From Venturia oleaginea (lineage: Eukaryota; Ascomycota; Dothideomycetes; Venturiales; Venturiaceae): 64,000 nt of DNA. Below, in pieces: positions 4,400-56,026 of the stretch; the stretch's first letter is position 1, and each line of letters begins with the position of its first letter. The position numbers and the translations under genes were made by a program. The notes under the pieces are model-generated. The model was not told the origin of the DNA. It was given only the letters and a program-made list of their open reading frames with translations, and did no database searches. The stretch spans positions 806,001 through 870,000 of the forward strand of contig JABMLP010000002.1 of assembly GCA_013176395.1 (NCBI GenBank), read 5' to 3'.

Positions 4400-6575
4400 A
4401 CCCACATCATTTCGACAAATGACGATGGAAAGCAAAAATGGGCAAACTGGATATCCTTTGGCGTTTTTCCTTCGTCCACAATACCTTCCACTCGCTTCTG
4501 CACAACGAAGTTCTATCTGGAATCATGGTTGAAAGGTACATCATCTTTTTTTTGTTTTGAAAAAGTGAGGGGTTTTCCTGGGGCTGTTATTTCTTGTTTG
4601 ATACCTGCCGCTGCTGCTTGTTTTTTTCTTGGTGCTTACATAGTCCGTTTTGCGTGCGTGCGTGCATTCGCAGCGTGTTGGCATGGTTTTGGTTTGGCTC
4701 AACTAGGCTTATTATCATATCTCTGTCTAGTGCCGTTTGCATGATGAAGGGAAGAGGGAGTGTAATGGAAATAATTACCCCTGTTTTCTATGTTTATGGG
4801 GCTTTTGGGTTTTGTTTTCATCAGTCTGCTGACGGTTCATCCTCGTCTGAAGATCTATGTTCAGCGTGCATGCATGTGGCGAAGAGCGTGGAAACTAAGG
4901 CGACTATATTCCACAACACATAGCGAGCATGGTTTTCCTTTCCTCGTTGCTATCAGGAACTCATTTATGGGTTTGTGGTCGTACATCTTCAAGCCTGGAT
5001 CGGGCATTCAGGTTTCTTCGGACGACTGCCACGGCTTTTGAAGCGAGCGCTTCTTTTTTTTAATCGGAGTTTGGGCTCTCTTTTGATTGCTCCGTTCATC
5101 GCTGGCGTGTCACGAACTCACCGCTGCTGCCTGATTTGATGCTGACGAGGTAAGTGGGTACGCAGATTCGTCCGGTTGTGTGTCGTCGCTTGTGGCTGCC
5201 GGGAAGGAAATGATGAAGGTACTATTTGTGTACCTTGGTTGGGCTGGGTAGGTATGTACTAGTATGGCTATAGTAGGTATGGAATGAGGGTTTTTGGCTG
5301 TGCCGGTTGTCTGGTTCTTGGAAAAGGGGCATGTTGCTTGTTTGCGGTTATTTGTTGGTGGGAGATTGAAGGGGAAGACGTGGTGTGTTTGTGAGGAATT
5401 GTTGGTTCTCGGTTCTTGGCCTTCAATTGAGCACGATACTCATTGCTGATACAGGCGGAAGACACGGGTGTTTCGATCTTGTAGCTTTCGTTGTATTCTC
5501 TTTCTTTGGAAACTCTTTGTGCCGCCCAAAGATTACCAAAGTCGAGTATACTCCGCCACCTTTCCGCTCTTTTATCGACTGGATGAAGTTGTCCTTGATT
5601 ATCTTTGCGGTGTAGTCCTGCCGTAGTATCAGCTGCTCGTTTTCCTGGCCAAGGGTGGGCTATCGGAAGATTAATCGCGTCAAGAAGGGAGGATAGCTAT
5701 GTGTACATGTCTATTCTCGGCCATGGAATTCTCCTCCGGCATGTAATAACGGCCGGATGGCTGCAGAACTTATCTGAAGACGAGCCGAGGTGGGGCTATA
5801 ATTCTCACTGTGTCTCTGAGCCAGGCGTATCTGTTGTATGAGTTGGCTGATGAGTGGATCGGGTGATGTACGTATTCGTGTTCGTGGATAGATGCATGCC
5901 CCGCTCGAATGGGGTTTCAAGAATGTGGAACCCATGGAGTCGCAATGATTACCCGCTATCATATAGTAGGAGTAGAAATAGAGTTTAGAATGCACCTTCT
6001 TTCCACCCGGGAATCCAATCCAATCTCGGAAGAGCCATCGTTCCAGAACAACGATGCTGATCCTCCGAAACCTAAAGCCTGGTTTTTGGGTGTTCCTTTG
6101 TTTTGTCGGTGAGGGCGGAGAGAGGTGGCGAGACGCTGCAAAGCTATATATACGATGCCCGCATGAGCAGCTATCCGGTCCGAATGTAGTCGGGGGACTG
6201 GAGCCGGTTGTCGTCGTTGTTCGAGAGAGATCTTTTTCCAATCGGCCTACTTTGATGCAAGGGATTTTAGATATCGGCAAGCCAACTCTGCAAGTCTGCA
6301 GATCTATATATAGGTTTTACGGATGGATAAATAGGAAATGGGCTGGTTGTGTTCTTGTTATACCATTGCTGTTACTCGAGTATTATCGCTATAATATCAT
6401 TATAGCCTTTATCATTACCACTACCACCAAACCCACCAAAAACCCAACGACCACTCCGAAGGTCTTCCTCACCAAACCGTAAAAATACCCACCATCATCA
6501 CCACCGCCTCAACCACAACAAACACACCTGCCACCCCAAACCCTCGACTCAACCCCAAAACCCCTCAAACCCGGA
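4400..6575. other. Long intergenic region
   Basis: No open frame here has gene-like composition or recognisable motifs. The first 600 bp, rich in T and G on the plus strand, are probably 3' untranslated sequence of the Whi2-like gene. The last 200 bp are an A/C-rich leader before the ABM-fold gene. No RNA gene recognised. Confidence 0.45.
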
Positions 6576-7849: not shown

Positions 7850-8167
7850 TCACATCTGACCCATCATCGGTACTGCAACATCTTCCAACTCCTGCTTCTT
7901 CTTCGCATACGTCTCCAAGGATGCAAGTTCGGAACCACCATCAAGCCATGCAATGATATCTACAATATGATTGTATAGCTTTGCCTTGTCGCCTGCCTCC
8001 ATCTTCTTGGTCATAGCAGGATCGTCAATGGAGTCGCGAAGTTTATTGACATAATCCTCGAGTCGGAATTTGGCTTGTTGGCGTTCGGCTTCTATCCCGT
8101 CTTCGTTTTCGTAGTCTTCGTTTTCTCGGATCAAGTGGTTGATTCTTCCTGATGGTAGGCGATCCAT
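7850..8167 (-). CDS. Hsp70 C-terminal lid-only protein
   Basis: Encodes 105 residues from the ATG at 8167. The whole product aligns by eye with the alpha-helical lid of Hsp70: an RINHLIRENEDYENED helix (compare the usual I-E-R-M-V-x-E-A-E), LEDYVNKLRDSI (compare LENYAYNMRNTI), then HIVDIIAWLDGGSELASLE and a KKKQELEDVAVPMM end. The Hsp70 ATPase and beta-sandwich domains are absent, and the upstream sequence looks like an ordinary C/T-rich leader rather than eroded Hsp70 core. It is either a true stand-alone lid protein or a transcribed fragment of a duplicated Hsp70. The frame has no stop, which favours selection. Confidence 0.65.
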   Translation of the reverse strand: MDRLPSGRINHLIRENEDYENEDGIEAERQQAKFRLEDYVNKLRDSIDDPAMTKKMEAGDKAKLYNHIVDIIAWLDGGSELASLETYAKKKQELEDVAVPMMGQM

Positions 8168-26062: not shown

Positions 26063-26074
26063 GATTAACCCACA

Positions 26075-27697
26075 ATGCCACCACAACTAGTCAATACAAA
26101 GGCCCAGAAAGAGGGTCAACTACTCCTCGCTCATGACGCTTATTCGAAAGGCCATTTTCCAAGTATTCGAAAGGCCGCCGATGCCTATTCTGTCCCATTT
26201 ACTTCCCTTGCCTCCCGCCTTCGCGGACGCACTTCACGCGTCGATTCGCGCCCAAATTGCCAAAAGCTTACGGATACGGAAGAGGAGGTCGTTGAGCATT
26301 GGATACTATCTATGGATGAAAGAGGTTATCCATTGACCGTTACTGGGGTACGCGATGCGGCAAAAATCGTACTCGAGCAGCGTGTAGGCTCAGATTGCAA
26401 AATCGGTGTCAATTGGCCTCAGCGATACATCAACCGCCGCCCTAGCCTCAAATCGCGATATTCACGCAGCTACGATAATCAAAGGGCAAGATGCGAAGAT
26501 CCAGCCCTTATTGGGGCCTGGTTTCGGCTTGTACAAAACACAATCGCTAAATACGGCATCCTCAATAACGATATCTACAACTTCGACGAAACTGGCTTTG
26601 CAATGGGCCTTGCAAGTACCTCACGCGTAGTTACTGCCTCAGATAGGCGTGGCAGACCCCCTCAATTACAGCCTGGCTATCGCGAATGGGTTACGGCAAT
26701 CGAATCGATCAATGCGCTGGGTTGGAGCCTCCCGCCGATGGTGATCTTCAAAGGCAAGGTACATATATCATCTTGGTACGAAAACAACAATCTACCGCCT
26801 GATTGGACAATTGCTTTGAGTACAAATGGATGGACTAATGACAAGCTTGGATTACATTGCTTAAAAGAGGTTTTCTAGCCAAATACAGCTGCAAGAAAGG
26901 TTGGTAGTTATCGACTACTAATTCTGGATGGCCACGGCAGCCACGCAACGCCAGAATTTGATCAATCTTGTGCAGACCGGGTGATTATTATTCTTTGTAT
27001 GCCACCGCATTCATCACATCTTCTTCAACCTCTCGATATTGGTTGTTTTTCGGTCCTCAAGCGTACCTACGGCCACCAAGTCTCGGAATATATGAGGCTT
27101 GGCATAAATCATATCGACAAAATTGAGTTCCTTCACGTCTTTAAAATTGCTCGAATTAGTGCCCTCACACTAAGCAATATTTAACGCAGCTTCACTGCTG
27201 CCGGTCTCGTACCTTTTGATCCAGATCAGGTACTTTCAACCATCCAGATTAGGCCATCTACCCCTACAGCGCCCTTGGCCGCAAACCAAGAGCAATGGCA
27301 ACCAGAAACACCTCAGAATCTAACCCAGTTAGAGCTGCAGGTAGCTACAATTAAAGGCTATCTTAAGAGACGTTCAAAAAGTCCACCAACACCAACAGAT
27401 CAGGCCCTTAATCAGCTTGTCAAGGGCTGCCAGATCGTGATGCAAGGCGCCGCTTTACTAGCTGCGGAAAATGAGAAATTAAGGGCTGCAAATGAGAGGC
27501 AGAAGCGAAAGAGGCAACTAAAAAGGAAATATATTAGTCAACCAAGCGCTTTAACTGTTGCAGAGGGCTCAAGCTTACTTCAACTTTCTAAAGAAGCTTC
27601 GGTTATCAGCAGTAACCAGGTTGATCAAGAGCCTTATATTGAGGAAGAACCACCAAATGAAGAGGAGAACATTGTAATTACTTGTTTTATTTGTCGC
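26075..27697 (+). pseudogene. Broken Fot1/pogo transposase
   Basis: An N-terminal HTH/CENP-B-type region (FPSIRKAADAYSVPFTSLASR) is followed by a DDE domain: NFDETGF (first Asp), LILDGHGSH (second Asp) and QPLDIGCFSVLK (third Asp). The frame is cut by TAG at 26876 and TAA at 27182, each one C-to-T change from a Gln codon, and reads on in the same frame after both. At 27698 a retrotransposon interrupts it; the last codons resume at 33281 beyond the insertion and its 5-bp target duplication and bring a Cys pair-type tail. Inactive. Confidence 0.9.
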
Positions 27698-27873
27698 TGT
27701 TATGGGCATGGCCCATGGTTGGTATAGGCTAAGAGCCTAAGCCTGATTGAGTCTAGTATAGAGAAAGAACCTCATTGAGGTTCTCTGTTTGTAGATACCT
27801 TCACTCTTTAACTGAATCTAAACAATCTTTGGCTACGAGTATGCTGCGTCTTTCCAGCCACCGTCCCGTAATA
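27698..27873 (+). repeat. 5' LTR
   Basis: 176 bp from TGTTATGGGC to CCCGTAATA. Compared with the 3' LTR it has TTCTCTG for TTCACTG and CCAGCCACC for CCAGCTACC. A TATA-like GTATAG lies about 55 bp before the predicted RNA start at 27810. Confidence 0.95.
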
Positions 27874-27907: not shown

Positions 27908-29002
27908 ATGCGTAGCAACAGTACCCTATCGACTCCTACAACCTACACCCCTACTACCGACGACGACCCAATCGCGAGCATTACGCAAGGAATCGACAAA
28001 CTCTCAATGGCTCGAGCAAATTCGCCTGACACCGTACAACAATTGGTGGCAGCTCTGACCGCAGTCAGTGTTGATGGGAACACCGGTGCAAAAGCTATTG
28101 CATGGCCTAAATGGGACGGGAAAAGAGACAACTACACGCTGTTCAGATGGCAGATCAAGACAAAAATCACTGTTGAAAATGGGAAGCTTGGAAGCAATCA
28201 AGGAATATGCGCGAACATCTTCAACGGGCTTCCGACAGAGAAACAACAACGCGTCATCCAATGGCTAAGCAATGGAGAGCAACATGACAACTACGAACCC
28301 GAGTCCTTTATCAAGCATATGGACGACAAGTTCTTAGATCATGAAGCGGAAGCTAAAGCTCTCGACGAGCTGAACAAGATTAGCCAAGGCAGCAGACAAC
28401 CGTTCGAAGACTTCCGCCAGCAGTTCGAACAACTGACATCGCAAGCTGGATCCCTAGCGCCGCAAAGAGCCTCAAAGATCACTATCATGAACAACGCGCT
28501 CAACTACTCCCTCCAACAGACCTTGAAATCAGTGCGATTGTCCAGGGACGACTACGACACTTACGTAAAAGATGTACAGTACTTCGCGACGAAGACAGAG
28601 GCTCTATTCCACCAACGCCGCTATCCAAGTACGGATAAGGAGACGCCAACGACTCGAGGGAGGCCACAATCACCCCAAACAGTCAGTCGTGACGCAGAAG
28701 GCGATGTCGAAATGACTGGCATCAACGCCCTTTCAGCGCAGATCGCAGCACTGATAGCTCGGGTCGATACACTCGGAAAGGATGCGAAGAAGGACCGACG
28801 ACCTAGAGCGAAATGGCGATCCCAAACAGAGTTCTTGGCACTTATACAAGCGGGCAAATGCGGGCGCTGTAAGAAGCCCAAGCACCACCCGAACGTATGC
28901 GAATTCCGACCAGCAACACGTCCAAAGACTCAGGTCACTGCGGTAATCACACAGCATACCGATGACTCCCTACAGGAAGCCTCATCAGAGTCGGAAAACT
29001 AG
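27908..29002 (+). CDS. Retrotransposon Gag polyprotein
   Basis: 364 residues from the ATG at 27908. The middle (WPKWDGKRDNYTLFRWQ, LDELNKISQGSRQPFEDF) is a typical Ty3/gypsy capsid region. A zinc knuckle CGRCKKPKHHPNVC (C-x2-C-x4-H-x4-C) lies near the C-terminus. The stop at 29000-29002 overlaps the open pol frame, which is shifted by -1. Confidence 0.92.
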   Translation: MRSNSTLSTPTTYTPTTDDDPIASITQGIDKLSMARANSPDTVQQLVAALTAVSVDGNTGAKAIAWPKWDGKRDNYTLFRWQIKTKITVENGKLGSNQGICANIFNGLPTEKQQRVIQWLSNGEQHDNYEPESFIKHMDDKFLDHEAEAKALDELNKISQGSRQPFEDFRQQFEQLTSQAGSLAPQRASKITIMNNALNYSLQQTLKSVRLSRDDYDTYVKDVQYFATKTEALFHQRRYPSTDKETPTTRGRPQSPQTVSRDAEGDVEMTGINALSAQIAALIARVDTLGKDAKKDRRPRAKWRSQTEFLALIQAGKCGRCKKPKHHPNVCEFRPATRPKTQVTAVITQHTDDSLQEASSESEN

Positions 29003-32000
29003 CTACCCTTGTGCATCGTCGCGCACGAGGGTCTGAAGTAGATGTACATGGCGAAGACATTACAAAGCTACCAGGCATAAGAGAAATCAAAGCAGCAAAG
29101 GATAGGATGGAAAGTACACCCTTCTTGATAGATACCTTGATCAATGGAACTTCTTTCACCGAATCCTTCTTTGATAACGGCTGCCTCCCTTATGCTGCTT
29201 TCAGCGAGAAGAGTGTCCAAACACATCGTCTACCGCGCATTCCAATTGACACCAAACAATTGGCACTGGCTAAAGAGAGCCACGAGAACGGAGAAGACCT
29301 CCGTATTACGCACATGACCTACGCTACGATCGACATTGATGGTCGAGCAGAGCGAGTCTATGGGTATATAGTGAAAGGATTGAGCTTCCCTATTATCCTA
29401 GGCAAGGCATGGGCAGAGAGAAACTGGGTGCGATATATAGCAGCTAAGAGAAAGCTGCTTATTGGTCAAGGATCCCAGCGCATCACGGTAAGAGAAAAGG
29501 GGTGGCTAGAACAGAACACCAAAGCGCGAGACCGGCTCGCTCACGTGCGGGCGGCTTGTCTAGTGTCAGGATCTGTATTTGCAGCTATTGTTGGAAGGGC
29601 CCAGCGACGGTTGAGAAGAGATGGACCGGATGGTACACAAGTGCTGGCTATCTCGATGTCGGATATCAACAAGGCCCTAAGCAAGTTAGCAGAAAGAAAA
29701 CAGAGAAAGACTGAGGAAGAAATCCGACAAGAGATACCAGAAGAAATAGCAGAGCATGCTGATGCCTTTCTCGACGACGAAGACGGAGAGATCGCGCCCC
29801 ATCAAGAGGGTCGCGATCACGTTATCGAATTGATACGAGATGAACAAGGTCGCGAGGCAGAAGTTCCTTGGGGCCCATTATACGGCATGTCGAGGGAAGA
29901 GCTATTAGTCCTACGAAAAACACTTTCGGACTATATGGACAAGGGCTGGATACGCGCCAGCAACTCACCAGCGGCAGCCCCAGTCTTATTTGTAAGGAAA
30001 CCAGGTGGAGGCATTCGGATGTGTGTAGACTATCGGGCACTGAATCGAATCACTCGATCGGACCGCTACCCATTGCCACTAATCCGAGAAACCCTACGAA
30101 ATCTAGCAACAGCGCGTTGGTACACCAAACTTGACGTCAGAGCGGCATTTCATCGGCTCCGCATCAAGCACGGCGATGAGTGGAAAACGGCTTTTCGCAC
30201 TCGATTTGGACTATTCGAATGGCTAGTTACCCCCTTCGGACTAGCTGGCGCACCCGCGAGCTTTCAACGATACATCAACGGAGTCCTACGGGAATCCCTA
30301 GATATCTGCTGTTCAGCCTACATGGACGATGTCTTGATATGGAGCGACGGCGACTATCTGGATCACATGGTTAAGGTTAACCAAATTCTTGCCAAGCTCA
30401 AGACTGCTGGACTTCGGCTAGACTTAAGCAAGTGCGAGTTTGCTGTTCAGGAGGTCAAATATCTGGGGTTCATTATCACTGCAGGAGAAGGGATCAAAGT
30501 CGACCCAGAGAAAGTTGCCGCGATTAAAGAATGGGAGGCTCCAGTCAATGTCACAGGCGTACGCTCCTTCCTAGGCTTTGCAAATTTCTACCGAGACTTC
30601 ATCGACAACTTCTCAGAGCTCTCCGACCCCTTAATCAAGTTAACACGGAAGGCCGTCGCTTTTGTCTGGAACAAAGAACATGAGAACGCCTTTCAAGTCT
30701 TGAAGGAGCTATTCATCTCCGCCCCAATACTGGCTCACTGGAATCCAGACCTGGATACGGTACTCGAGTGCGACTGCTCTGGCTACGCGCTGGGAGGCAC
30801 GTTGTCGCAGAAGGATATGAAAGGAAAACTACGACCAGTAGCATACTTCTCCCGCAAGCTCACTGCGGCTGAATGTAACTACGAGATCCACGATAAAGAA
30901 TTACTGGCAGTAATCAAGTCCATTGAACACTGGAGAGGAGAACTACGCAGTGTTGCAGCACCTTTCAAAGTCCTTACCGATCACAAGAATCTCCGCTACT
31001 TTATGACAGCGCAGCGTTTGTCAGAGAGACAAGCAAGATGGTCGCTAATTCTATCTGAGTACCAATTCCAGCTGGAATTTCGCGCCGGAAAACTAGCGCA
31101 AAGACCAGACGCACTATCAAGAAGACATCAAGATATGCCACATGACAAGAACGACGAGAGACTACAAGGGCGAGTGGCCCAGTTGATCAAGGACGAATGG
31201 CTTCCTCCTCTTTCCGAGAGGACGACCGAAACAATCGCAATACAAGCCCTTATCTGCCCAGTCAATACACCGAATACATCCAATAGTACATGGGACGTTA
31301 TACGGGAGCCCCAGCAAAATACTGGACTGGACGGTCGACACCAGCTGACTGCCGAAAACGGTCAACACCGGTCCACTACTAGGTACGGTCAAAACCGGTC
31401 AGTTGCAAAAGGATGCGATCTTTTCGAGAAACCAGAGTTACAACTTCTCTGGGATCGCGCAATAGCAGAGGACCAATCCTACGAAGCTATTCATACGGCT
31501 ATAGTTACTGGCGAACGTTCCTTTCCTCCAGAGCTCAAGTTGTCGGTACAGCTACCCGAATGCGAAGTAGACGACCACGGCGCGGTCACGAGAAGAGGGA
31601 TCCTATGGGTACCAGATTGGGAACCGCTGCGAACAACGCTGGTCCAACAAACTCACGATTCCCATGTTACTGGACACCCAGGGAGAGATAGCACGCTTGC
31701 GATTCTATCCAGAAGTTTCTTTTGGCCCCAACAATACAAGACAGTCCGGCAGTTTGTACGTAATTGCGACGTATGTGGGAGAACAGGAATATGGCGTGAT
31801 AAGAAGCGAGGTCTTCTGAAACCACTTCCAATCCCGGCCCGCTTCCACAGCGAGCTATCAATCGATTTCATGACTGATTTGCCCGCAGAGGAAAACGGCC
31901 CAAAATACCTCATGGTTATCACAGATCGCCTCCTCAAAAGTGTTACGTTGGAGGCTATGACTACAATGAGCGCCAAAGAGTGCGCGAAAAGGTTCTTACA

Positions 32001-33087
32001 ATGCCACTATCGCTACCACGGATTTCCCATGGCATTGACGTCGGACAGAGGCAGCAATTGGACAGGTCGTTTTTGGAAGAAGCTTTGCGAACTTACAAAG
32101 ATTGAGCAGAGACTCTCTACAGCCTTTCATCCACAGACTGATGGCGCGACCGAGCGCATGAACCAGGAAGTTCTACGCTATCTCCGCGCCTTCATCGCAT
32201 ACTCCCAACTAGACTGGCCAACGCTACTACCTACGGCTATGTTAGCACTGAACAATCGTGACTCTTCAGTCACAGGGATGAGTCCATTCTATCTAACCCA
32301 CGGCTACCATGCGGAACCAATCCAGAAAGTACAACGAATCTCACCCAGTAACTCACCAACAGCCGATGCCGAGACCTTTGTGCAACGAATAGAAGAGGCA
32401 CAAGAATATGCACAGGCAGCGATGGCCTGGTCCCAGCAGAAGATGGAGAACGACGCCAACAGGTCACGTCAAGCTGCCGAAACGTTAAAAAAGGGCGACA
32501 AAGTCTGGTCGAACCTTAGGAATATCAATACTCCGCAGCTATCAAAGAAACTGTCGTGGACGCAAGCCAAATACACTGTCGAGAACCAGATCTCCCCGAT
32601 GGTATACGAGCTGGCTGACCTGCCAAGTGGTATCCATAACCGTTTCCACGTTGACCTACTCCGCCGAGCCGCAACCGACACACTGCCCTCACAAGAATCC
32701 GATGATACCCAGCCGCCACCATTAGTGCCTCAAACCGAAGAAACAGAGGCTGAGTTTGAAGTAGAACGTATACTTCGCGCAGAGAAGAAACGGGTTGGGC
32801 GAGGCTGGGTTCGTCAGTTATTAATCAAATGGAAAGGCTATGCAGATCCCGATTGGCAGCCACGTTCATTATTCACAGAAGTCGAGGACTTAGACCGCTT
32901 CGAGGCAGAGTATGGCAAGGGCGACGGTGTCGGCGAAGATATAGGAGCTCAAACAGGGGCCCGAAGAAACCGAGTAGCGGTGGCCAGCGCCTTCGAATCT
33001 GCTACAAGCTGGCAGAAGCGATGTATGGCGTTTGTCTGTTTGATTATCCCACCTACCACACCCTCTTTAGTCCTGCACACCCGGTAA
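28966..33087 (+). CDS. Retrotransposon Pol polyprotein with chromodomain
   Basis: Uninterrupted frame of about 1370 codons, overlapping gag by some 37 nt in the -1 frame and lacking an early ATG, so it is presumably made by frameshifting. In order: an aspartic protease-like region with FFDNG where D-T/S-G is usual; reverse transcriptase (KLDVRAAFHRL, TPFGLAGAPASFQ, SAYMDDVLIWS); RNase H (VLECDCSGYALGG, NYEIHDKELLAVI); an integrase zinc site (HDSHVTGHPG with CDVCG) and core (SIDFMTDLP, LTSDRGSNW, ATERMNQEVL); and a C-terminal chromodomain (FEVERILRAEKK, LIKWKGYADPDWQP). Chromodomains steer insertion towards heterochromatin. Confidence 0.93.
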   Translation, partial: LPTGSLIRVGKLATLVHRRARGSEVDVHGEDITKLPGIREIKAAKDRMESTPFLIDTLINGTSFTESFFDNGCLPYAAFSEKSVQTHRLPRIPIDTKQLALAKESHENGEDLRITHMTYATIDIDGRAERVYGYIVKGLSFPIILGKAWAERNWVRYIAAKRKLLIGQGSQRITVREKGWLEQNTKARDRLAHVRAACLVSGSVFAAIVGRAQRRLRRDGPDGTQVLAISMSDINKALSKLAERKQRKTEEEIRQEIPEEIAEHADAFLDDEDGEIAPHQEGRDHVIELIRDEQGREAEVPWGPLYGMSREELLVLRKTLSDYMDKGWIRASNSPAAAPVLFVRKPGGGIRMCVDYRALNRITRSDRYPLPLIRETLRNLATARWYTKLDVRAAFHRLRIKHGDEWKTAFRTRFGLFEWLVTPFGLAGAPASFQRYINGVLRESLDICCSAYMDDVLIWSDGDYLDHMVKVNQILAKLKTAGLRLDLSKCEFAVQEVKYLGFIITAGEGIKVDPEKVAAIKEWEAPVNVTGVRSFLGFANFYRDFIDNFSELSDPLIKLTRKAVAFVWNKEHENAFQVLKELFISAPILAHWNPDLDTVLECDCSGYALGGTLSQKDMKGKLRPVAYFSRKLTAAECNYEIHDKELLAVIKSIEHWRGELRSVAAPFKVLTDHKNLRYFMTAQRLSERQARWSLILSEYQFQLEFRAGKLAQRPDALSRRHQDMPHDKNDERLQGRVAQLIKDEWLPPLSERTTETIAIQALICPVNTPNTSNSTWDVIREPQQNTGLDGRHQLTAENGQHRSTTRYGQNRSVAKGCDLFEKPELQLLWDRAIAEDQSYEAIHTAIVTGERSFPPELKLSVQLPECEVDDHGAVTRRGILWVPDWEPLRTTLVQQTHDSHVTGHPGRDSTLAILSRSFFWPQQYKTVRQFVRNCDVCGRTGIWRDKKRGLLKPLPIPARFHSELSIDFMTDLPAEENGPKYLMVITDRLLKSVTLEAMTTMSAKECAKRFLQCHYRYHGFPMALTSDRGSNWTGRFWKKLCELTKIEQRLSTAFHPQTDGATERMNQEVLRYLRAFIAYSQLDWPTLLPTAMLALNNRDSSVTGMSPFYLTHGYHAEPIQKVQRISPSNSPTADAETFVQRIEEAQEYAQAAMAWSQQKMENDANRSRQAAETLKKGDKVWSNLRNINTPQLSKKLSWTQAKYTVENQISPMVYELADLPSGIHNRFHVDLLRRAATDTLPSQESDDTQPPPLVPQTEETEAEFEVERILRAEKKRVGRGWVRQLLIKWKGYADPDWQPRSLFTEVEDLDRFEAEYGKGDGVGEDIGAQTGARRNRVAVASAFESATSWQKRCMAFVCLIIPPTTPSLVLHTR

Positions 33088-36616: not shown

Positions 36617-37639
36617 CTAGCTGTGGCTAAGCTCTTCTCCCGGTTTGAACGCCGATTTTGGTATTTCCACAGCATGCTTCTTCACCCCTTCGACAACGCT
36701 GTCCCAGTTCTTACACTTGTGTGAAGCTCCGAAATCTTCCTTCGCCACCTCTCCAATTTTACCCTCAAACCATAAGTACGGTGTAAGGTCAGCGTTGCAC
36801 ATCAACGCTTCGCGCAATGTCGCAATGCAGTGGGTGACATGATCTCGAGCAACTTGTTTACTGTTAAGCGTGAACAGCCATGGTACCAAACCGGCGGGGT
36901 ACTCGTCCCGTTGCACGTATTGTCGAACTACGTTCAAGCAGTGAAGATGATGGAAAATTTCCACCGTGCCGACGTACCCAACGTCACCTCCTCCCCGCGT
37001 GGTTTCGACGAAGCCTTGTGTGTGACTGCGGTCCAACGAGAGCAACTTTTCTGATGGAATCATCACTGCTGGCACTGGGTAGCAAAAGTTAGTCAGTTGG
37101 TTTGTTCTTCGATCTCTTTGTGACACTGGGTAAAGCTTACTGTTTTCCAAGGCTTGCCATGCTGCCTCAAGCGATGCACTTGGAGGTCCATCGTACAAGG
37201 TGTTATTCGAAGTGCTTTCTTTGAAGTTGCGTACTTCATATTGCACATAGGGCAGGACAGGAGCTGCATTAAACACATCGTCATCAGTCTACCTCGCGAA
37301 GAGAGAACCAAGGTAAGTGAACTCACACCAAACGCTGAGTTGCTTTGTGCATTCGACATCTCTCTTCGGCGCGTCCGACCCATATGTCCTAATTTTCATT
37401 TTGGGGCGCGTTGAAGTCCACATCATGCCAGCCCCAGCAAGGAACATGAGAACACATGCGAGTCTAATCAGCGACTCTAGCGAAACCAGGAGACTTGGAG
37501 CTCTAGAACGAGTAACAACCTGTTCAAGGGAGGCCTCATTCTCGTGCTTCCCTTCCTCCACTTCGACAGGAGCATATTGGCTATTGTGCGCGCCTTTCCA
37601 CCACTTCGCTCTGAGATTCGTTGCAGTTGACCGGATCAT
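36617..37639 (-). CDS. UstYa-like oxidase (DUF3328), copy A
   Basis: Three exons fit (minus): 37639-37327, 37263-37141 and 37074-36617, giving 297 residues. A cytosolic N-terminus is followed by one membrane segment at about 52-74 (SLESLIRLACVLMFLAGAGM). The lumenal part has the family's two metal-type motifs: HHLHC at 187-191 and HC at 227-228 in HCIATLREALMCNADLTP, then SHKCKNW. In ustiloxin, phomopsin and asperipin pathways UstYa proteins oxidise and cross-link peptide side chains in the secretory pathway. It lies on the opposite strand from copy B and the precursor, about 5 kb away, and about 0.6 kb from the precursor relic. Substrate inferred only. Confidence 0.9.
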
Positions 37640-38229: not shown

Positions 38230-38436
38230 CTAACCTATCTCTCCCCGGACTCTAGTCTTGTATCCGAGGATATCAGCTGGATTGGAGACGGCGCTGATCC
38301 CGTCATGGCAAGCGATGGCGCCGCTCGGGGAACTTTGGAGCTTGAGGATGTAGTTGATAGCATCGATGGTGGAGTCAGCCTCCGTGTTGGTCTCATCGCA
38401 CTTCATGACTGGGGCTGCAACGGTAAATCCAGCGAT
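38230..38436 (-). pseudogene. Relic of a repeat-peptide precursor gene
   Basis: A 68-residue open stretch on the minus strand aligns along its length with exon 1 of the precursor at 42534: AAPVMK vs AAPMAK, STIDAINYILKLQ vs TTVDAVNYILSVQ, and NPADILG vs DPSEILG. The signal-peptide region is lost (in-frame TAG at 38437-38439), the Kex2 KR is replaced by YKTR, and no further repeat units follow before the TAG at 38230. It is a decayed or divergent single-unit paralogue, possibly the ancestral form. An undetected upstream exon cannot be excluded. Confidence 0.72.
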
Positions 38437-40337: not shown

Positions 40338-41342
40338 ATGGAGGAAACCAAAGATTACCGTCCCCTCATGGACCCCGAGAACTTCGAAGACGACAACTCT
40401 TCCACCGGCCACTCGAGCCAGGCAGACCTCGCCAACATGATGAAGGTTAGAAAGCAGCAGACATGGCGACGTCACCTCCCAAACCCCCTCATTTTCGCCG
40501 TCTGCCTCCTCACCGTCCTCGCTTTGGCGAATTTAGTCATGATATTCAGATATTGGAAACCAACAGATGCGCAGTGCACGGCACAATTGAGCACCTACTG
40601 TAAGAAATTCTTCCAAGCAATCACCCCAACACACACATACACCATGATCAGACCTGATTCCCTTTCTTTCTTTCTGAAATGCTGACATTTGTTTTTAGCG
40701 CCTGCCCTCGAAGCAGTAGAGTATGAAGAAATTGACTTCACGGCTACTTTCAACAATACCAGTATTTACCGCGGTCCCCCCACTCCAGAACGCGAAAAAG
40801 CGTGGGACAAACTAACCTACAAACACGGCATCGAGGTCCCGGCTGAGAAATTGGCTATGCTGAACCGAACGGATCTGGACCATATCAAACATGTTCCCAA
40901 GGACGTGGGCACGGGATACATGGGTATCTTGGAGGTATTCCATCAACTGCACTGCCTCGTAAGTTCCTCCTCTGCCCTACTCCCCACCATGCAAAACCCG
41001 ACCTTCCCCTCCTTTGTTCTTTCCAACCATGGCAAGGAGACATTGCTAACCTCCCACTTCTCGTCCAAACAGAACATGATCCGCATGTACACCTGGTGGC
41101 AAGTGGGAAAATACCCCGGCACACCAGCCGGTCTCTCCATGTCCCCGCTCAAAAACCGCATGCACATAGATCACTGTTTCGAAAGTCTCAGGATGAGTCT
41201 GCAGTGCCACGGTGATGTTACGCCTGTGCTTATCCAGCTGGGTGGGCCGGTGGGTAGTAAAGCTGATTTCAGAACTCATCACAAGTGTCGAAACTTTCAG
41301 AAGTTGGAGGATTGGATTGACAATAATTGGAGTGTTAATTAG
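40338..41342 (+). CDS. UstYa-like oxidase (DUF3328), copy B
   Basis: Three exons fit: 40338-40599, 40699-40958 and 41073-41342, giving 263 residues. An acidic cytosolic N-terminus precedes a membrane segment at about 49-70 (LIFAVCLLTVLALANLVMIF). The lumenal domain has IYRGPPTPEREKAWDKL, VPAEKLAMLNRT, HQLHC at 169-173, HIDHC at 205-209 and LQCHGDVTP, then HHKCRNF. These are the diagnostic HxxHC motifs of UstYa-type oxidases. The last intron falls right after the first motif. It is co-oriented with and 1.2 kb upstream of the repeat precursor, the strongest contextual link to that peptide. Confidence 0.92.
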
Positions 41343-42533: not shown

Positions 42534-43701
42534 ATGAAGACCACTCAATCCGTCCTCTTCGCCCTCGTGGCCACCGTCAATGCCGCACCAATGGCCAAGC
42601 CTGTACAGAGCTCTGAAAACACAGAGACTGTTTACCCAAGCGAGACAACCGTCGATGCTGTCAACTACATTCTCTCTGTACAGAAATCTGGAACCGGGGC
42701 TTATGGAGAGGAAATCGAGGCTGCAATGGCTAAGGACCCTTCTGAGATTCTTGGAAAGCGCGCTGGTCAGTGCCACCATCTTCATTGGAGTCTGATATAT
42801 GATACTAACCTCGACTACAGTAGAGCCAAGTGAGACAGCCGTCGACGCTGTCAATTACGTCCTCTCCCTCGAGAAAAGCGGACCTGGTGTTACCGCGTAC
42901 GACGACGAGATTAACTCTGCCGTCCCAGCTGATATCCTTGGAAAGCGCGCTGGTAAGAATAGTATCTTTTTTCTTTAAGGATTTAATAGTCGTATTAATC
43001 TCGACTATAGTAGAGCCAAGTGAGACAGCCGTCGATGCTGTCAACTACGTCCTCTCCCTCGAGAAAAGCGGACCTGGTGTTACCGCGTACGACGACGAGA
43101 TTAACTCTGCCGTCCCAGCTGATGTCCTTGGAAAGCGTGCTGGTAAGAATAGTATCTTTTTTTCTAAGGATTTAATAGTCGTATTAATCTCGACTATAGT
43201 AGAGCCAAGTGAGACAGCCGTCGATGCTGTCAACTACGTCCTCTCCCTCGAGAAAAGCGGACCTGGTGTTACCGCGTACGACGACGAGATTAACTCTGCC
43301 GTCCCAGCTGATGTCCTCGGAAAGCGCGTTGGTAAGAATAGTATCTTTTTTTAAGGACTTAATAGTCGTATTAATCTCGATTATAGTAGAGCCAAGTGAG
43401 ACAGCCGTCGATGCTGTCAACTACGTCCTCTCCCTCGAGAAAAGCGGACCTGGTGTTACCGCGTACGACGACGAGATTAACTCTGCCGTCCCAGCTGATG
43501 TCCTTGGAAAGCGCGCTGGTAAGAAAAGTATCTTTTTTTTCTAAGGATTTAATAGTCGTATTAATCTCGACTATAGTAGAGCCAAGTGAGACAGCCGTCG
43601 ATGCTGTCAACTACGTTCTCTCCCTCGAGAAAAGCGGACCTGGTGTTACCGCGTACGACGACGAAATCAACTCTGCAGTCCCAGCCGATGTTCTTGGTTA
43701 G
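42534..43701 (+). CDS. Secreted Kex2-processed repeat precursor, candidate RiPP (dikaritin-like)
   Basis: Six exons fit: 42534-42765, 42821-42952, 43011-43142, 43200-43331, 43387-43518 and 43577-43701, giving 294 residues. A signal peptide MKTTQSVLFALVATVNA is followed by a divergent first unit and five near-identical units of 44 residues (VEPSETAVDAVNYVLSLEKS, then GPGVTAYDDEINSAVPAD, then VLGKRA). The first five units end in GKR, a Kex2 site; the last stops after VLG. Exons 2-5 are exactly 132 nt and every intron (55-58 nt) is phase 1, so units can be added without frame loss. This is the architecture of UstA/PhomA-type precursors and other Kex2-processed repeat proteins. The shared NY-[VI]-L around the Tyr is a candidate core; maturation is inferred from neighbouring UstYa genes. 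Confidence 0.85.
42821..43701 (+). repeat. Tandem exon-intron repeats, ~187-190 bp unit
   Basis: Five units start at 42821, 43011, 43200, 43387 and 43577. Exon parts differ at only a handful of positions. The four complete introns following units 1-4 share GTAAGAA.AGTATC, a T run, TTAATAGTCGTATTAATCTCGA and .TATAG. Intron 1 after the divergent first exon is different. The whole exon-intron segment was therefore copied recently. Confidence 0.95.
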
Positions 43702-46210: not shown

Positions 46211-47469
46211 ATGGAATCTGACCGCGAACTAAGGTTGCGAGATCTCCGAGAACGATTTGAGACGCTGAAAACAATGAGGAAACGGATGAGCCAGATAGAG
46301 TCAGGGCAGCGAATGATCGCTGCGTCTCAAACCTCCGCGACTCCGGAGTCAAGCGACACGCCTCCTCCCATGCTGGACAACAACTTACCCTGGGAAGACC
46401 GAGAACAGCCTGTACAAGAGCAGATTGGGCAAGCCATCTCATTCAGCGATTTATATCCTGACTCACCGATGCGAAATCTTCGACAAAGTTTGGAGAATCT
46501 GAAAGATACAATGGAAGACAAAAGATAATGTCATGGCAGCAGCTCAACCTTTTGCAGCTCCGAGACCGAGCAAGATGCCCCCTGCCATGTTGAACAGCGA
46601 CCTAGATTGGGATGTTCGAGCTCGCCTTGTACGCGAAGACATTGAGCGGCTTACCAGGAACATCGTTTCTCAGACAACTAGCGCTCTCGAATTTGTGGCA
46701 GCCTCAAGTTCTAGATCGAGCTCGCCATCTTCTCAGTCCACAGAGCCTCCCCCTTATTCGACCTTGGATACGAGCACCGAGGTAGCGATCGACTCATCAT
46801 GCAACCGGTCGTCACGCAGTCCCATCCATCAGCTACAGGAAGTAGAGATCAAATTCCCTGATCAGATCATTTGCCCTGCGTGTGTCGAATTTCATCCGAT
46901 CCATAGACTGTTCGCCAGATCCTGCCACAAATTACTTAACACATTGCCAGTCGTTTCTAGTCCGTTCATGACTTGCAGCGCATACAGTTCCGCTTTGTAT
47001 TGTGGTGGCGGCATTAAGATAGATCTCATGACTTTGCATCTTGTCATGAGATCACATTGACTTGGGCCTCACCACGGTCTTCCGACGTCTGCATTATTTC
47101 GGTCAAACAGCCGCACGGTTTCCAAATGCTCCCACAAGGCTATTTTGACATCCCAAACAGCTGCCCGAATTTTGGAAAATCGTCTGAATCGACTCACAAA
47201 ACACGATTTCTTCGTTGCAGGAGAAACTTCTAGACGGGCAGGACTGCTTACACTGTAGTAGCCAGTACCTGATTTTAGATTGCAAAAGAAGGAAGGGAGA
47301 GAAGAGTACTTTCAAAGGAAAGGACAGGATATTTCAGATCGACCGATACATTGATTTCGGCGAGTGTTCGCCGGATGACACATCCGAATGGAATGCGGTC
47401 ACAAAGCAAGGGAGAGGACTTGGGTACACCCGAACGACGAGCCCGAAGGATTTATGGAGAAAGGCATAA
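46211..47469 (+). pseudogene. Decayed accessory gene, paralogue of the next locus
   Basis: Protein-like pieces in different frames: 46211-46528 (PPPMLDNNLPWEDREQPVQE), 46533-47060 (MPPAMLNSDLDWDVRARLVR, TEPPPYSTLD, ICPACVEFHPIHRLFA) and 47215-47469. The first two share a module, so it may be internally duplicated. The last piece, FQIDRYIDFGECSPDDTSEW to SPKDLWRKA, matches the end of the locus at 47992. That end resembles the R/W-x-D-L/F-G-x-G stretch at the C-terminus of many fungal F-box-type proteins; no F-box itself is visible. Function unknown. Confidence 0.45.
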
Positions 47470-47991
47470 TCGATTGCTTCTGACGACCAAGACCGCTGCG
47501 GATAAGAATCATACACAACAACGCGCATCATCAAGACTCTTTATCTACACTCCATCTCAATTTGCCATTTCTCAAGTGAACCGCACACATTCAAATCTAA
47601 CCCGGAGTTAGCACCTCTTTGGCAGTTTCTTTCTGAACCTTGCCGGAATTCTGCGCCATCGATTTGCTCCGAGTCATGTTCTATTGAGCCAGATAAATGA
47701 TGGAAAGAAAAACGCTCTTAAAACCGTGGGCCCGTTGGAATCGGTGAACCATTGGCTTTGCTAGGCTTGCCGTGGGTCACAAAACACTATCCGCGCACAC
47801 GTATTGAGAAGACCCTTCAACCAGTTCATACCTACCTACTTTCTTGCCTTTGCACATTTCTACGCTTCAAATTCAACAATCTTCGCTCAAAACAGTTATT
47901 TCGACCCAGAACCACCTTCGTCCTTTCTCGAGCAATTTCAAACACCATCGATATTCATCTTAACAGCTATGAACGTCTAGACGAAGTCAAT

Positions 47992-49016
47992 ATGAGGTGG
48001 CACCCAATGAAGCGATTGTCTCCTTTCGCTCGGTCGGACGCGTCAACGATCTCGGACAGAAGTTCCGATTCAGCGAAGCAGCCGCCACCTTACTCTCGAA
48101 AGGACCCGGCCACTCGACAAACGTTGAAGGCTCTTCAAGCCAACGACAGCTCTTTTTCCTCGAAAGATAGTCGGGGCGATTTACAACATTTTGACAACAA
48201 TGCCAAAATCGAAGACTTTGCCCAGAATGGGTTGAACACCACTCAGCCAACGATTGACTCAAAAGCTATACCATCAAGTCATTGTCACCTGATAGCACGG
48301 CCGTTGGACCTTGCGATGCATTTACCTGCACTTTGGATATCGCTTTCCTCATGAAAGTCAATTGGATGACCCTATGCCTCATCATGCAGGATTATCGCAG
48401 ACCTGGATTTCACAAGGAAAGCCTTTTGCCAATGAGCCTCACAGGTTCTGGGTTTAAGAGTGTTTTACAAAAAATGAAGAGCAGAACTGAAGGGTACGAC
48501 TACCTCAGATATATCTTCAAGTTACACTCTAAGGCCAGTGCCGCGGACGATCGACTGGTCTTGAAAACATCTGCGTTGCTCCATTTGCGCGAAGACGAGA
48601 AGGTCGAGAGACATCACCTCGAAGAGTTTATCAAGCCAATCGTATGTGCTCACGACCTCAACCAAATCTACCTTAATTCTCACAATAATTACACCGGTCA
48701 TAAGATTGGAACAGTTCTCAACGACTTCATTGATCGACGAGACAACTTGTGCCAACGGGAGGGAGAAGTTCACGACGAGAGATGCACGGTCTACAGCTCT
48801 GAGTATGTCGTCATTGTAGGAAACAAGAGACAAGGCGAAGAGTCAACCGTTTCGAAGAACAGCAGAGTGTTCCAGGTGGACAGGTATATCGACTTTGGAG
48901 AGTGTCGTGCTGCTGATCTGAAGGAGTGGAATGCTTTGACTAATCATGGAAAGGGTTGAGAATTCTATACTCGTCCATCAATGAGCCCAAAGAAGTTATG
49001 GGAGAAAGCAAAGTGA
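47992..49016 (+). pseudogene. Accessory gene with frameshift and late stop
   Basis: Starts MRWHPMKRLSPFARSDAST with a Ser/Pro-rich head (SAKQPPPYS). Near 48260, at an AAAA run, coding sense moves by one base into the frame running to 48959 (SLSPDSTAVGPCDAFTC, LMKVNWMTLCLIMQDYR, FQVDRYIDFGECRAADLKEW). TGA at 48957 is followed in frame by EFYTRPSMSPKKLWEKAK and a second TGA at 49014, matching the end of the paralogue at 47469. So one missing base plus one nonsense change (CGA to TGA fits). A sequencing error at the A run is possible. Family unknown, F-box-protein-like C-terminus. Confidence 0.5.
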
Positions 49017-54557: not shown

Positions 54558-56026
54558 ACGTGTTCCATCACCGAGCTGGTCAACCCACCGAGCTGGTCAA
54601 AAAGGCTTGGCACGACCAACTCATGTTACGACTCTTCAATTTAATCGCTATTAACAATACATTCTAAGTCCGTCGTGCTGCTATCTGATTCAGATGATAC
54701 CTCGATATCTTTTTTACAAGTTCGCGCATTATGCCCAGTTGCACCGCAGTTCCTACAGCGCCGTTGAGTTGGTCGGGCTATTTCTTGACCACCACTACCA
54801 CGAGCCTTCTTTAATCCCTGAGGCGCGACAGACGCCTCAGCAGCTACCTGCGCTGCTACAGTCCCATACTCTATAGTACCACCTTGCTGGATCCACTTCC
54901 TTTTGCGCCATTTTCGCTTTGTCATTACTGCCAATTGCTCTTCAAGCTCGCGGTTGCGCGCAACAAGTAGAGCGTTTTGGTGTAGCATCAATTCAGCGCC
55001 CTTGACAAGCTGGGAAAAGCCTGCCTGCGCAGTAACTGGTGACCGAGTAAAGGACTCGCTTACGAGCTTGGATTGGGATCCAAATTCAAGAGTATTGCTT
55101 GGAGTCTTCGACTGCCACGGCGTCTCCTGCGGTGGGGGTGCTGGTGGGGTACGTAGCCGTACTTCAAGGCGATCCAATACCACCTCCGCGTTGATAGGGA
55201 CTAGCCCTACCATCTCAAAAGCCTTTCGACAGTTCTCTTCTGTAAACACGTCGAAAAACGCGTCTTTGAAGGCTGGGAGGAAGCCTTCTTTGTTGATATG
55301 GTAGACGCGTCGGCGTGCCAAGTCTCGAACTCGTTGAGAGTACTTGCACTTCAACGGCGAGAAGCAGACCACATCAAGCGGCTGGAGGATATGCGATGAA
55401 TGAGGTGACATACAGAGCGTTATGATCTTATGTTCGAGGCAGTAGTCCTTGAAATCCTGGTTGAGATGGCTCTCATGGCCGTCCAAGATGAGCAGCCTAT
55501 ACCCCCCCACTTGACGCGCCTTTGTATGCGCGTCAAAGTGCTTCAACCACTTAAGACCAAGCGCGTTGTTTGTCCAGCCGTTCTCAGAGACCGAGAGCTT
55601 CCAATTCCGTGGTAAATCTGCCTCCTCATACCACGCAGAGATGTGAACGCGTCCTTTGTAGATAATGAATGGCGGGGTCGCATACCCAGCGGCGCAGATG
55701 CTCTGGATAACTGTAACCCACTCGCGGTCGAGGATATATTGGACAATTGTCTGCTCTTCAGTCGTAGTGAGCTTGTGTTGGGCGTTGCGAGTATCTAGGC
55801 GATACGTGATTCCGTTGTATCGGCTAGTCAATGTTGAAGGAGGTACATCAAACGCTTCAGCAGCGCGCCGGAGGCTTCGGAACTGGTGGGTGTTATAGGC
55901 AGAAAGGGCAAGCTGAATTCTGCCTTCTCTGTTAGATAATTGCGCATTTTGTTGTTGAGACATATCGTGTTAATGAGGGAGTTGGTCGTCTTGGCAGAAA
56001 CTGACCAGCTCGGTGGTGGAACACGT
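54558..56026 (-). mobile_element. Second Fot1/pogo-type element, internally deleted
   Basis: 25-bp terminal inverted repeats with one mismatch (54558-54582, 56002-56026), starting ACGTGTTCCA, flanked by TA at 54556-54557 and 56027-56028. The left end carries a second CACCGAGCTGGTCA copy just inside. At 1469 bp it is about 0.37 kb shorter than the other element. Confidence 0.9.
54641..55963 (-). CDS. Fot1-like transposase missing part of DNA-binding and DDE regions
   Basis: 440 residues, no stop. An HTH start (FRSLRRAAEAFDVPPSTLTSR) and TTTEEQTIVQYILD lead directly into REWVTVIQSI; relative to the element at 26 kb about 128 residues are missing, including the second DNA-binding half and the NFDETGF catalytic Asp. 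The other two acidic motifs remain (LLILDGHESH and QPLDVVCFSPLK). A CCHC knuckle CRNCGATGHNARTC lies near the end. The in-frame deletion should abolish catalysis, but DNA binding by the C-terminal part is conceivable. Confidence 0.9.
   Translation of the reverse strand: MSQQQNAQLSNREGRIQLALSAYNTHQFRSLRRAAEAFDVPPSTLTSRYNGITYRLDTRNAQHKLTTTEEQTIVQYILDREWVTVIQSICAAGYATPPFIIYKGRVHISAWYEEADLPRNWKLSVSENGWTNNALGLKWLKHFDAHTKARQVGGYRLLILDGHESHLNQDFKDYCLEHKIITLCMSPHSSHILQPLDVVCFSPLKCKYSQRVRDLARRRVYHINKEGFLPAFKDAFFDVFTEENCRKAFEMVGLVPINAEVVLDRLEVRLRTPPAPPPQETPWQSKTPSNTLEFGSQSKLVSESFTRSPVTAQAGFSQLVKGAELMLHQNALLVARNRELEEQLAVMTKRKWRKRKWIQQGGTIEYGTVAAQVAAEASVAPQGLKKARGSGGQEIARPTQRRCRNCGATGHNARTCKKDIEVSSESDSSTTDLECIVNSD

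Follow-up and report, generated by a model that had tools for sequence, protein, structure and literature searches.

A peptide precursor gene was modelled on the forward strand at positions 42534-43701 of the window, which is the whole stretch of 64,000 nucleotides analysed here, taken from a fungal assembly that totals 46 Mb in 61 contigs. The model is derived from the sequence. An N-terminus that looks by eye like a signal peptide is followed by six units of one repeated peptide, and two UstYa-family genes and a degenerate single unit lie nearby. The features are given below by position and strand.

36617..37639, minus: UstYa1, UstYa-family gene, introns partly placed; PF11807 at about 120.5-125 bits (cut-off 25)
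38257..38379, minus: degenerate single unit (relic); 40% identity to a precursor unit (E 1.3e-3 for a search of its own genome)
40338..41342, plus: UstYa2, UstYa-family gene of 263 aa with exons 40338-40599, 40699-40958 and 41073-41342; PF11807 at 146 bits (cut-off 25)
42534..42765, plus: precursor exon 1, 232 nt; signal-peptide-like start and divergent unit 1, GKR at end
42766..42820, plus: intron 1, 55 nt; 63-64% identity to introns 2-5
42821..42952, plus: exon 2, 132 nt, phase 1-1; unit 2, GKR at end
42953..43010, plus: intron 2, 58 nt; 90-97% identity among introns 2-5
43011..43142, plus: exon 3, 132 nt; unit 3, GKR at end
43143..43199, plus: intron 3, 57 nt; the sole intron with an open frame when retained
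43200..43331, plus: exon 4, 132 nt; unit 4, GKR at end
43332..43386, plus: intron 4, 55 nt
43387..43518, plus: exon 5, 132 nt; unit 5, GKR at end
43519..43576, plus: intron 5, 58 nt
43577..43701, plus: exon 6, 125 nt including the stop; unit 6, ending ADVLG without KR

All five predicted introns are of the GT-AG type and in phase 1, and each has a branch-point-like YTRAY motif ending 11 nt upstream of its 3′ end. In silico splicing gives an uninterrupted frame of 294 amino acids with six units and five GKR sites; a stop is met when intron 1, 2, 4 or 5 is retained. The splice point lies one codon past KR (KR-A/V, the stroke marking the junction), and an internal exon corresponds to one unit plus one cut site. 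Two tyrosines are present in every unit, and a dibasic site ahead of unit 1 is absent. The spliced frame agrees with the original prediction of a signal peptide (by eye) and six units, the first five closed by GKR and the last without it, and also with the symmetric introns that it proposed. Its exon length of exactly 132 nt was correct for four exons (2-5) and incorrect for the fifth, exon 6 being of 125 nt with the stop.

Duplication history, relic and UstYa neighbours

The repeats were also found by Tandem Repeats Finder as a 190-bp tandem array of 4.7 copies with 95% matches (score 1626). The precursor repeats are under coding constraint, because 11 of the 13 variable sites in exons 2-6 fall at codon position 3, the other two being divided between position 1 and position 2. 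The third-position excess has P 2e-4 assuming equal chances, in a naive test of copies that share their history. When exon 6 is compared with exons 3, 4 and 5 in turn, 7-8 sites differ, every one of them a third position.

Introns 2-5 are nearly identical, and the recent duplications therefore copied exon and intron together, and the diverged intron 1 marks the junction of units 1 and 2 as older. Since the exons are in phase 1 and frame-neutral, copy number can shift by whole exon-plus-intron units, which is in keeping with the earlier proposal of change through exon duplication.

The relic that had been announced at 38.2 kb, with NYIL kept and the second tyrosine replaced by cysteine, is real. 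Its flanking dibasic sites are absent on both sides, and a clear signal-peptide start was not seen. Its identity to P0024, which comes from another source, is 73% over 40 residues and exceeds the 40% that it shares with the window units; it therefore looks like a separate old paralogue and not a copy of the array. We read it as degenerate and as a poor guide to which tyrosine matters, because both flanking dibasic sites are lost. A genome search with one unit as query (7 candidates) gave no paralogue beyond the six units and the relic.

UstYa2 has the motifs HQLHC and HIDHC and lies 1192 bp upstream of the precursor; UstYa1 has HHLHC and HVTHC and lies 618 bp from the relic. The chance of a UstYa gene so near is 8e-4 for 1192 bp and 4e-4 for 618 bp, with 16 genes spread at random; the number 16 is an estimate, and the 23 PF11807 matches in the genome form 17 groups by place. 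In a comparison of about 14-15 UstYa loci, with UstYa1 represented by its C-terminal 223 residues, the two genes are mutual best matches (31.5% identity, 97 bits), and the next-best matches score 65.5 bits for UstYa1 and 79.7 bits for UstYa2. The gene model and these neighbours together support the reading of a predicted secreted, kexin-type, multi-copy precursor adjoining UstYa genes. Among the subset of window ORFs run through Pfam, no tyrosinase or methyltransferase gene was found.

The window also contains a long open retrotransposon-type pol frame at 28966-33087 (plus strand, by eye) and transposase genes at 26069-27727 (plus) and 54641-55969 (minus), with DDE_1 scored for 26069-26878 and 54641-55969. 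Adjoining plus-strand frames at 47279-47611 and 48258-48959 share similar stretches (.FRSTD/FQVDRYIDFGEC type) and are probably a local duplication.

The peptide family and its link to EC6

Relatives of the precursor were collected in three protein searches, each of which scored the 7,994-7,996 candidates sharing most words with the query. The whole precursor found two proteins among the best word-sharing candidates. A profile (A1) made from these two and a shortened window sequence gave 48 matches at E 10 or better, the worst having E 2e-4, and a second profile gave 45 matches, 13 of them new. The family set consists of 58 relatives and the window protein (59 in total). Three distant proteins of the Venturia inaequalis group (P0059-P0061, from V. 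inaequalis and one other source) were excluded; they match at E 3.1e-4 to 6.6e-2, carry strongly diverged KR-separated repeats, resemble the relic-type members at the N-terminus and are distant relatives by look. The window precursor itself satisfies the family profile, with significant similarity over the unit and with both the AY..E block and the C-terminal P..[VI]LG present.

The named sources include Didymella, Dothidotthia, Ramularia, Venturia effusa, Letrouitia, Lecanora, Penicillium, Aspergillus and Colletotrichum, and they cover four classes, namely Dothideomycetes, Lecanoromycetes, Sordariomycetes and Eurotiomycetes (one species looked up per class). Family relatives were not found in viral contigs. 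No family member matched Pfam at E 0.01 (0 of 32, a single window unit included), and a unit had no PDB relative at E 1. The spliced precursor did reach 32.7 bits against DUF6280 (PF19796, cut-off 27); no single stretch passes, and this candidate was set aside as a sum over the repeats. The scores against four other Pfam families were weaker.

All 59 proteins, with 104 units, were taken in for a recount of ends, junctions and tyrosine loss. One unit is present in 31 proteins, two in 14, three in 13 and six in the window protein; these are lower bounds, some sequences being partial. The C-terminus is the unit's own end in 49 of the 59 (47 LG, one VG, one LS). Four of the other ten run one residue over and six stop elsewhere, the latter six being by appearance truncated or mis-predicted. 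Internal junctions read KR or RR in 45 of 47 cases (46 of 48 with another pattern), the non-dibasic ones being one each in P0053 and P0012 (ER, RS); one junction of P0023 reads GKG and was missed by both patterns. The original prediction had named homologues that are structural wall proteins uncut at KR as evidence against it, and what was found are homologues whose unit junctions are nearly all dibasic. A dibasic site stands at most 45 residues ahead of the first unit's Tyr block in 55 of 59 proteins, which suggests that single-unit members may also be released by kexin. The translation of P0053 (163 aa, metagenome source, three units) reads as if intron sequence separates its first two units, a possible hint of unit-junction introns in another lineage.

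Profile A1 contained no Colletotrichum sequence, and it found P0033 (E 2.4e-6) and P0038 (E 6.8e-6), both named "EC6 protein" in their source labels. A single comparison of a window unit with P0038 gave 18 of 38 identical residues (E 9e-8). Going by homology and by these labels, the window gene is a relative of ChEC6, the EC6 protein of Colletotrichum, a genus that infects plants, and the profile defines a little-described peptide family with EC6 among its members.

The claim that no product of this sequence had been described calls for correction. The single-unit relative ChEC6 has already been studied, as an intact secreted effector candidate (PMC3320591), though no mature peptide from it is described in the available passages. 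The word "kex2" is absent from the main text of PMC3320591. According to the available passages, one assay showed no gain in bacterial virulence from ChEC6 (PMC3320591), and those of another study state that it was undetected in the interaction of C. fructicola with apple (PMC6064131). The unit strings VNYILVL, VNYILKL, DAYQDEI, DAYQDEV, TAYDDEI and VNYVLSL do not occur in the literature searched.

A model of one unit by AlphaFold2 was mostly helical and of modest confidence, with a mean pLDDT of 71.6 and a pTM of 0.32. In Ustilago, the Rep1 products are described, in the part of the source available, as kexin-released amphipathic peptides of 35-53 residues, and surface-active repellent peptides of this kind would share with the window units a similar length and the helical prediction. 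We consider such a function highly improbable: the likeness is one of length and prediction, the window units are acidic by eye, and the many single-unit members (31 of 59) fit a signal or an effector better than a coat.

Tyrosines, processing and product

Conservation was counted over 94 distinct units; these counts omit four of the 59 proteins that have no C-terminal anchor (P0024, P0036, P0045, P0046), and those for the terminal LG are partly built in by the same anchor. Of 93 distinct units, 92 have the second tyrosine; the first is present in 81 of 92. In the NYIL block the isoleucine is kept in 80 of 92, and elsewhere the A before the second tyrosine in 86 of 93, E in 84 of 93 and the P near the end in 88 of 94. 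Over four fungal classes the conservation covers the whole unit and not a tetrapeptide. The first tyrosine is absent from 12 of the 104 units, all of them from P0017, P0022, P0050, P0051 and P0055 (lichen-type). These units retain their C-terminal half, and the first tyrosine is therefore hard to see as an indispensable residue.

The original prediction had chosen Tyr-Val-Leu as the best core since the second tyrosine is cysteine in the relic. The evidence does not bear this choice out, as the second tyrosine is the more conserved one, unit 1 retains it and the relic is degenerate. The same counts bear on a short-core dikaritin, in which NY-[VI]-L would form the core for cyclisation by UstYa and AYDDE..PADVLG would be a recognition follower that is discarded. 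The two UstYa genes adjoining the precursor agree with such a scheme, and so does the scrambled N-terminal half of the five lichen-metagenome proteins P0017, P0022, P0050, P0051 and P0055, which keep AYQDxxDAV..PAxVLG, as would be expected if the core varies and the follower stays fixed. However, the scrambled halves lose the only core tyrosine in 12 of 12 units, that is, the residue which the chemistry needs; NYIL is conserved and not variable in most units, and the more invariant tyrosine sits in the conserved C-terminal half. We therefore regard a short core as unlikely. The likely product, judged from this conservation, is a whole peptide of about 40 residues and not a short ustiloxin-like core.

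Such a peptide could also be a plain linear one, processed by kexin and pheromone- or effector-like, with no modification by UstYa and with UstYa neighbours that are coincidental or serve other products. In its favour, earlier work treated the EC6 relatives as ordinary secreted proteins, the unit is predicted to be mainly helical, and a nearby DUF3328 gene is the exception among KEX2-processed repeat proteins (KEPs), 22% having one in the available part of the survey (PMC7329392). Against this stand the invariant tyrosine and the presence of one UstYa gene near each precursor copy, the two being mutual best matches; little credence is accordingly left for an unmodified peptide. The linkage of UstYa to an EC6-family precursor comes from one genome, and the characterised UstYa products in the available literature derive from repeats of 8-14 residues as against about 42 here; both points weigh against a modified peptide.

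On balance, the locus probably encodes a six-unit precursor of the EC6 family from which kexin would release peptides of about 42 residues, probably modified by UstYa and acting outside the cell or at the host surface. The signal peptide would direct the precursor into the secretory pathway, where kexin would cleave after every KR and a Kex1-type carboxypeptidase would strip K and R. The peptides so released, of about 42 residues, would all end in VLG or ILG. Unit 6, through its own stop, ends in ADVLG, the C-terminus expected of the other units once kexin and carboxypeptidase have acted. A single kexin-type P_proprotein match was found in the genome, scoring 101 bits within a frame of 902 aa, and there are S10 carboxypeptidase matches as well. 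For the idea that GKR could serve amidation, PF03712 (peptidylglycine monooxygenase) was searched and gave zero matches in this genome and also zero in the control genomes.

The exon borders lie no further than one to two codons from the cuts, so that an internal exon would supply one peptide and one cut site, and copies come and go in steps of about 190 bp, each an exon together with its intron, as the near-identical introns 2-5 show. At least one of the two adjoining UstYa oxidases probably modifies peptide tyrosine, before or after release, as the linkage suggests. The peptide's site of action would most likely be extracellular or the surface of the host, by homology with ChEC6, which is reported to be secreted. 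The simple model is one in which gene architecture mirrors protein processing, with exon borders near the protease cuts, and in which peptide dose may be adjusted by duplication or skipping of frame-neutral exons with the protein left intact. It points to a candidate UstYa-target tyrosine inside a long peptide.

A broader and more doubtful proposal, offered tentatively, is that the EC6 family as a whole is a widespread class of peptides of about 40 residues that are modified by UstYa and serve as effectors or signals. Active ChEC6 would then differ from the secreted protein used in the tagging and assays: it would be a peptide released by kexin, its LG end free and its conserved tyrosine oxidised or cross-linked, and some lineages would tune its dose by duplication of one-peptide exons. 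If this is true, EC6 matures to a short peptide whose C-terminus is fixed, and C-terminal fusions and cytosolic expression of unprocessed EC6 would miss the natural molecule. The proposal joins the kexin/UstYa peptide clusters with Colletotrichum EC6; no earlier joining of EC6 with UstYa was found in the literature searched, where the sole co-occurrence was a false match on EC65. A study in Venturia, in the part available, reports nine dikaritin clusters and warns that dikaritin precursors are often mistaken for ordinary secreted proteins (PMC9632046), and we propose EC6 as a possible case of this warning, that is, a RiPP-type precursor taken for an ordinary secreted protein.

Comparison with known precursor systems

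Arrays of KR-separated repeats with units of 10-25 residues were found at six of 14 other UstYa loci of the genome (L031, L032, L034, L038, L042 and L043), counted with motifs that were chosen after a first look at the loci. The repeats lie within a single open frame in five of the six arrays, L043 having two frames with 3 and 5 copies, and none of the six has an intron in every linker. In L031, for example, an open frame of 267 residues holds a Tyr-Tyr motif 12 times in exact copies. At a further locus, L044 (G000:C2:788000-797900, plus frame, about 4799-5083), a UstYa-type frame has three EDLFGVRRKR-like repeats of 14-15 residues between its HxxHC motifs, an oxidase that carries kexin-like repeats internally. 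The genome thus has ordinary dikaritin-like precursors, from which the window gene departs in unit length and in exon design.

One repeat per exon was not described in the literature searched, which mostly excludes subscription papers; PMC8786786, on Glomeromycotina tandem-repeat proteins, mentions exon and intron and may hold a precedent. The word "intron" is absent from the main texts of two KEP surveys and occurs once in an Agaricomycete study, for cDNA cloning. The survey of Umemura counts 7878 KEPs, 22% of them with a DUF3328 gene nearby (PMC7329392), and the EC6 family is not identifiable from the top lists in its available part. In a lichen RiPP survey, as far as its available text goes, a repeated precursor is absent from its two clans (PMC12048977).

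The window precursor resembles KEPs in its signal-peptide-like start (by eye) and KR-separated repeats, and differs from KEPs generally in its exon-per-unit structure. With the dikaritins (ustiloxin, phomopsin, asperipin-2a, victorin and possibly the epichloecyclins) it shares a signal-peptide-like start, a multi-copy kexin-type precursor and adjoining UstYa/DUF3328 genes. Its unit of 44 residues is unlike their repeats, which in the available part of the Umemura survey are of 13 residues in ustiloxin, 14 in phomopsin and 8 in asperipin-2a (PMC7329392); also unlike dikaritins, the EC6-family unit is conserved whole between fungal classes and the window gene has an intron per linker. With Colletotrichum EC6 (P0033, P0037-P0040, P0044, P0048 and relatives) the window gene has in common the unit D[SA]VNY[IV]L..L, AY[QD]DEI[DN].A.P..VLG, a start like a secretion signal and a C-terminus at LG, and a dibasic site precedes the unit in most EC6 members. 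EC6 has one unit and no exon-per-unit design, whereas the window gene has six units, each with its own exon.
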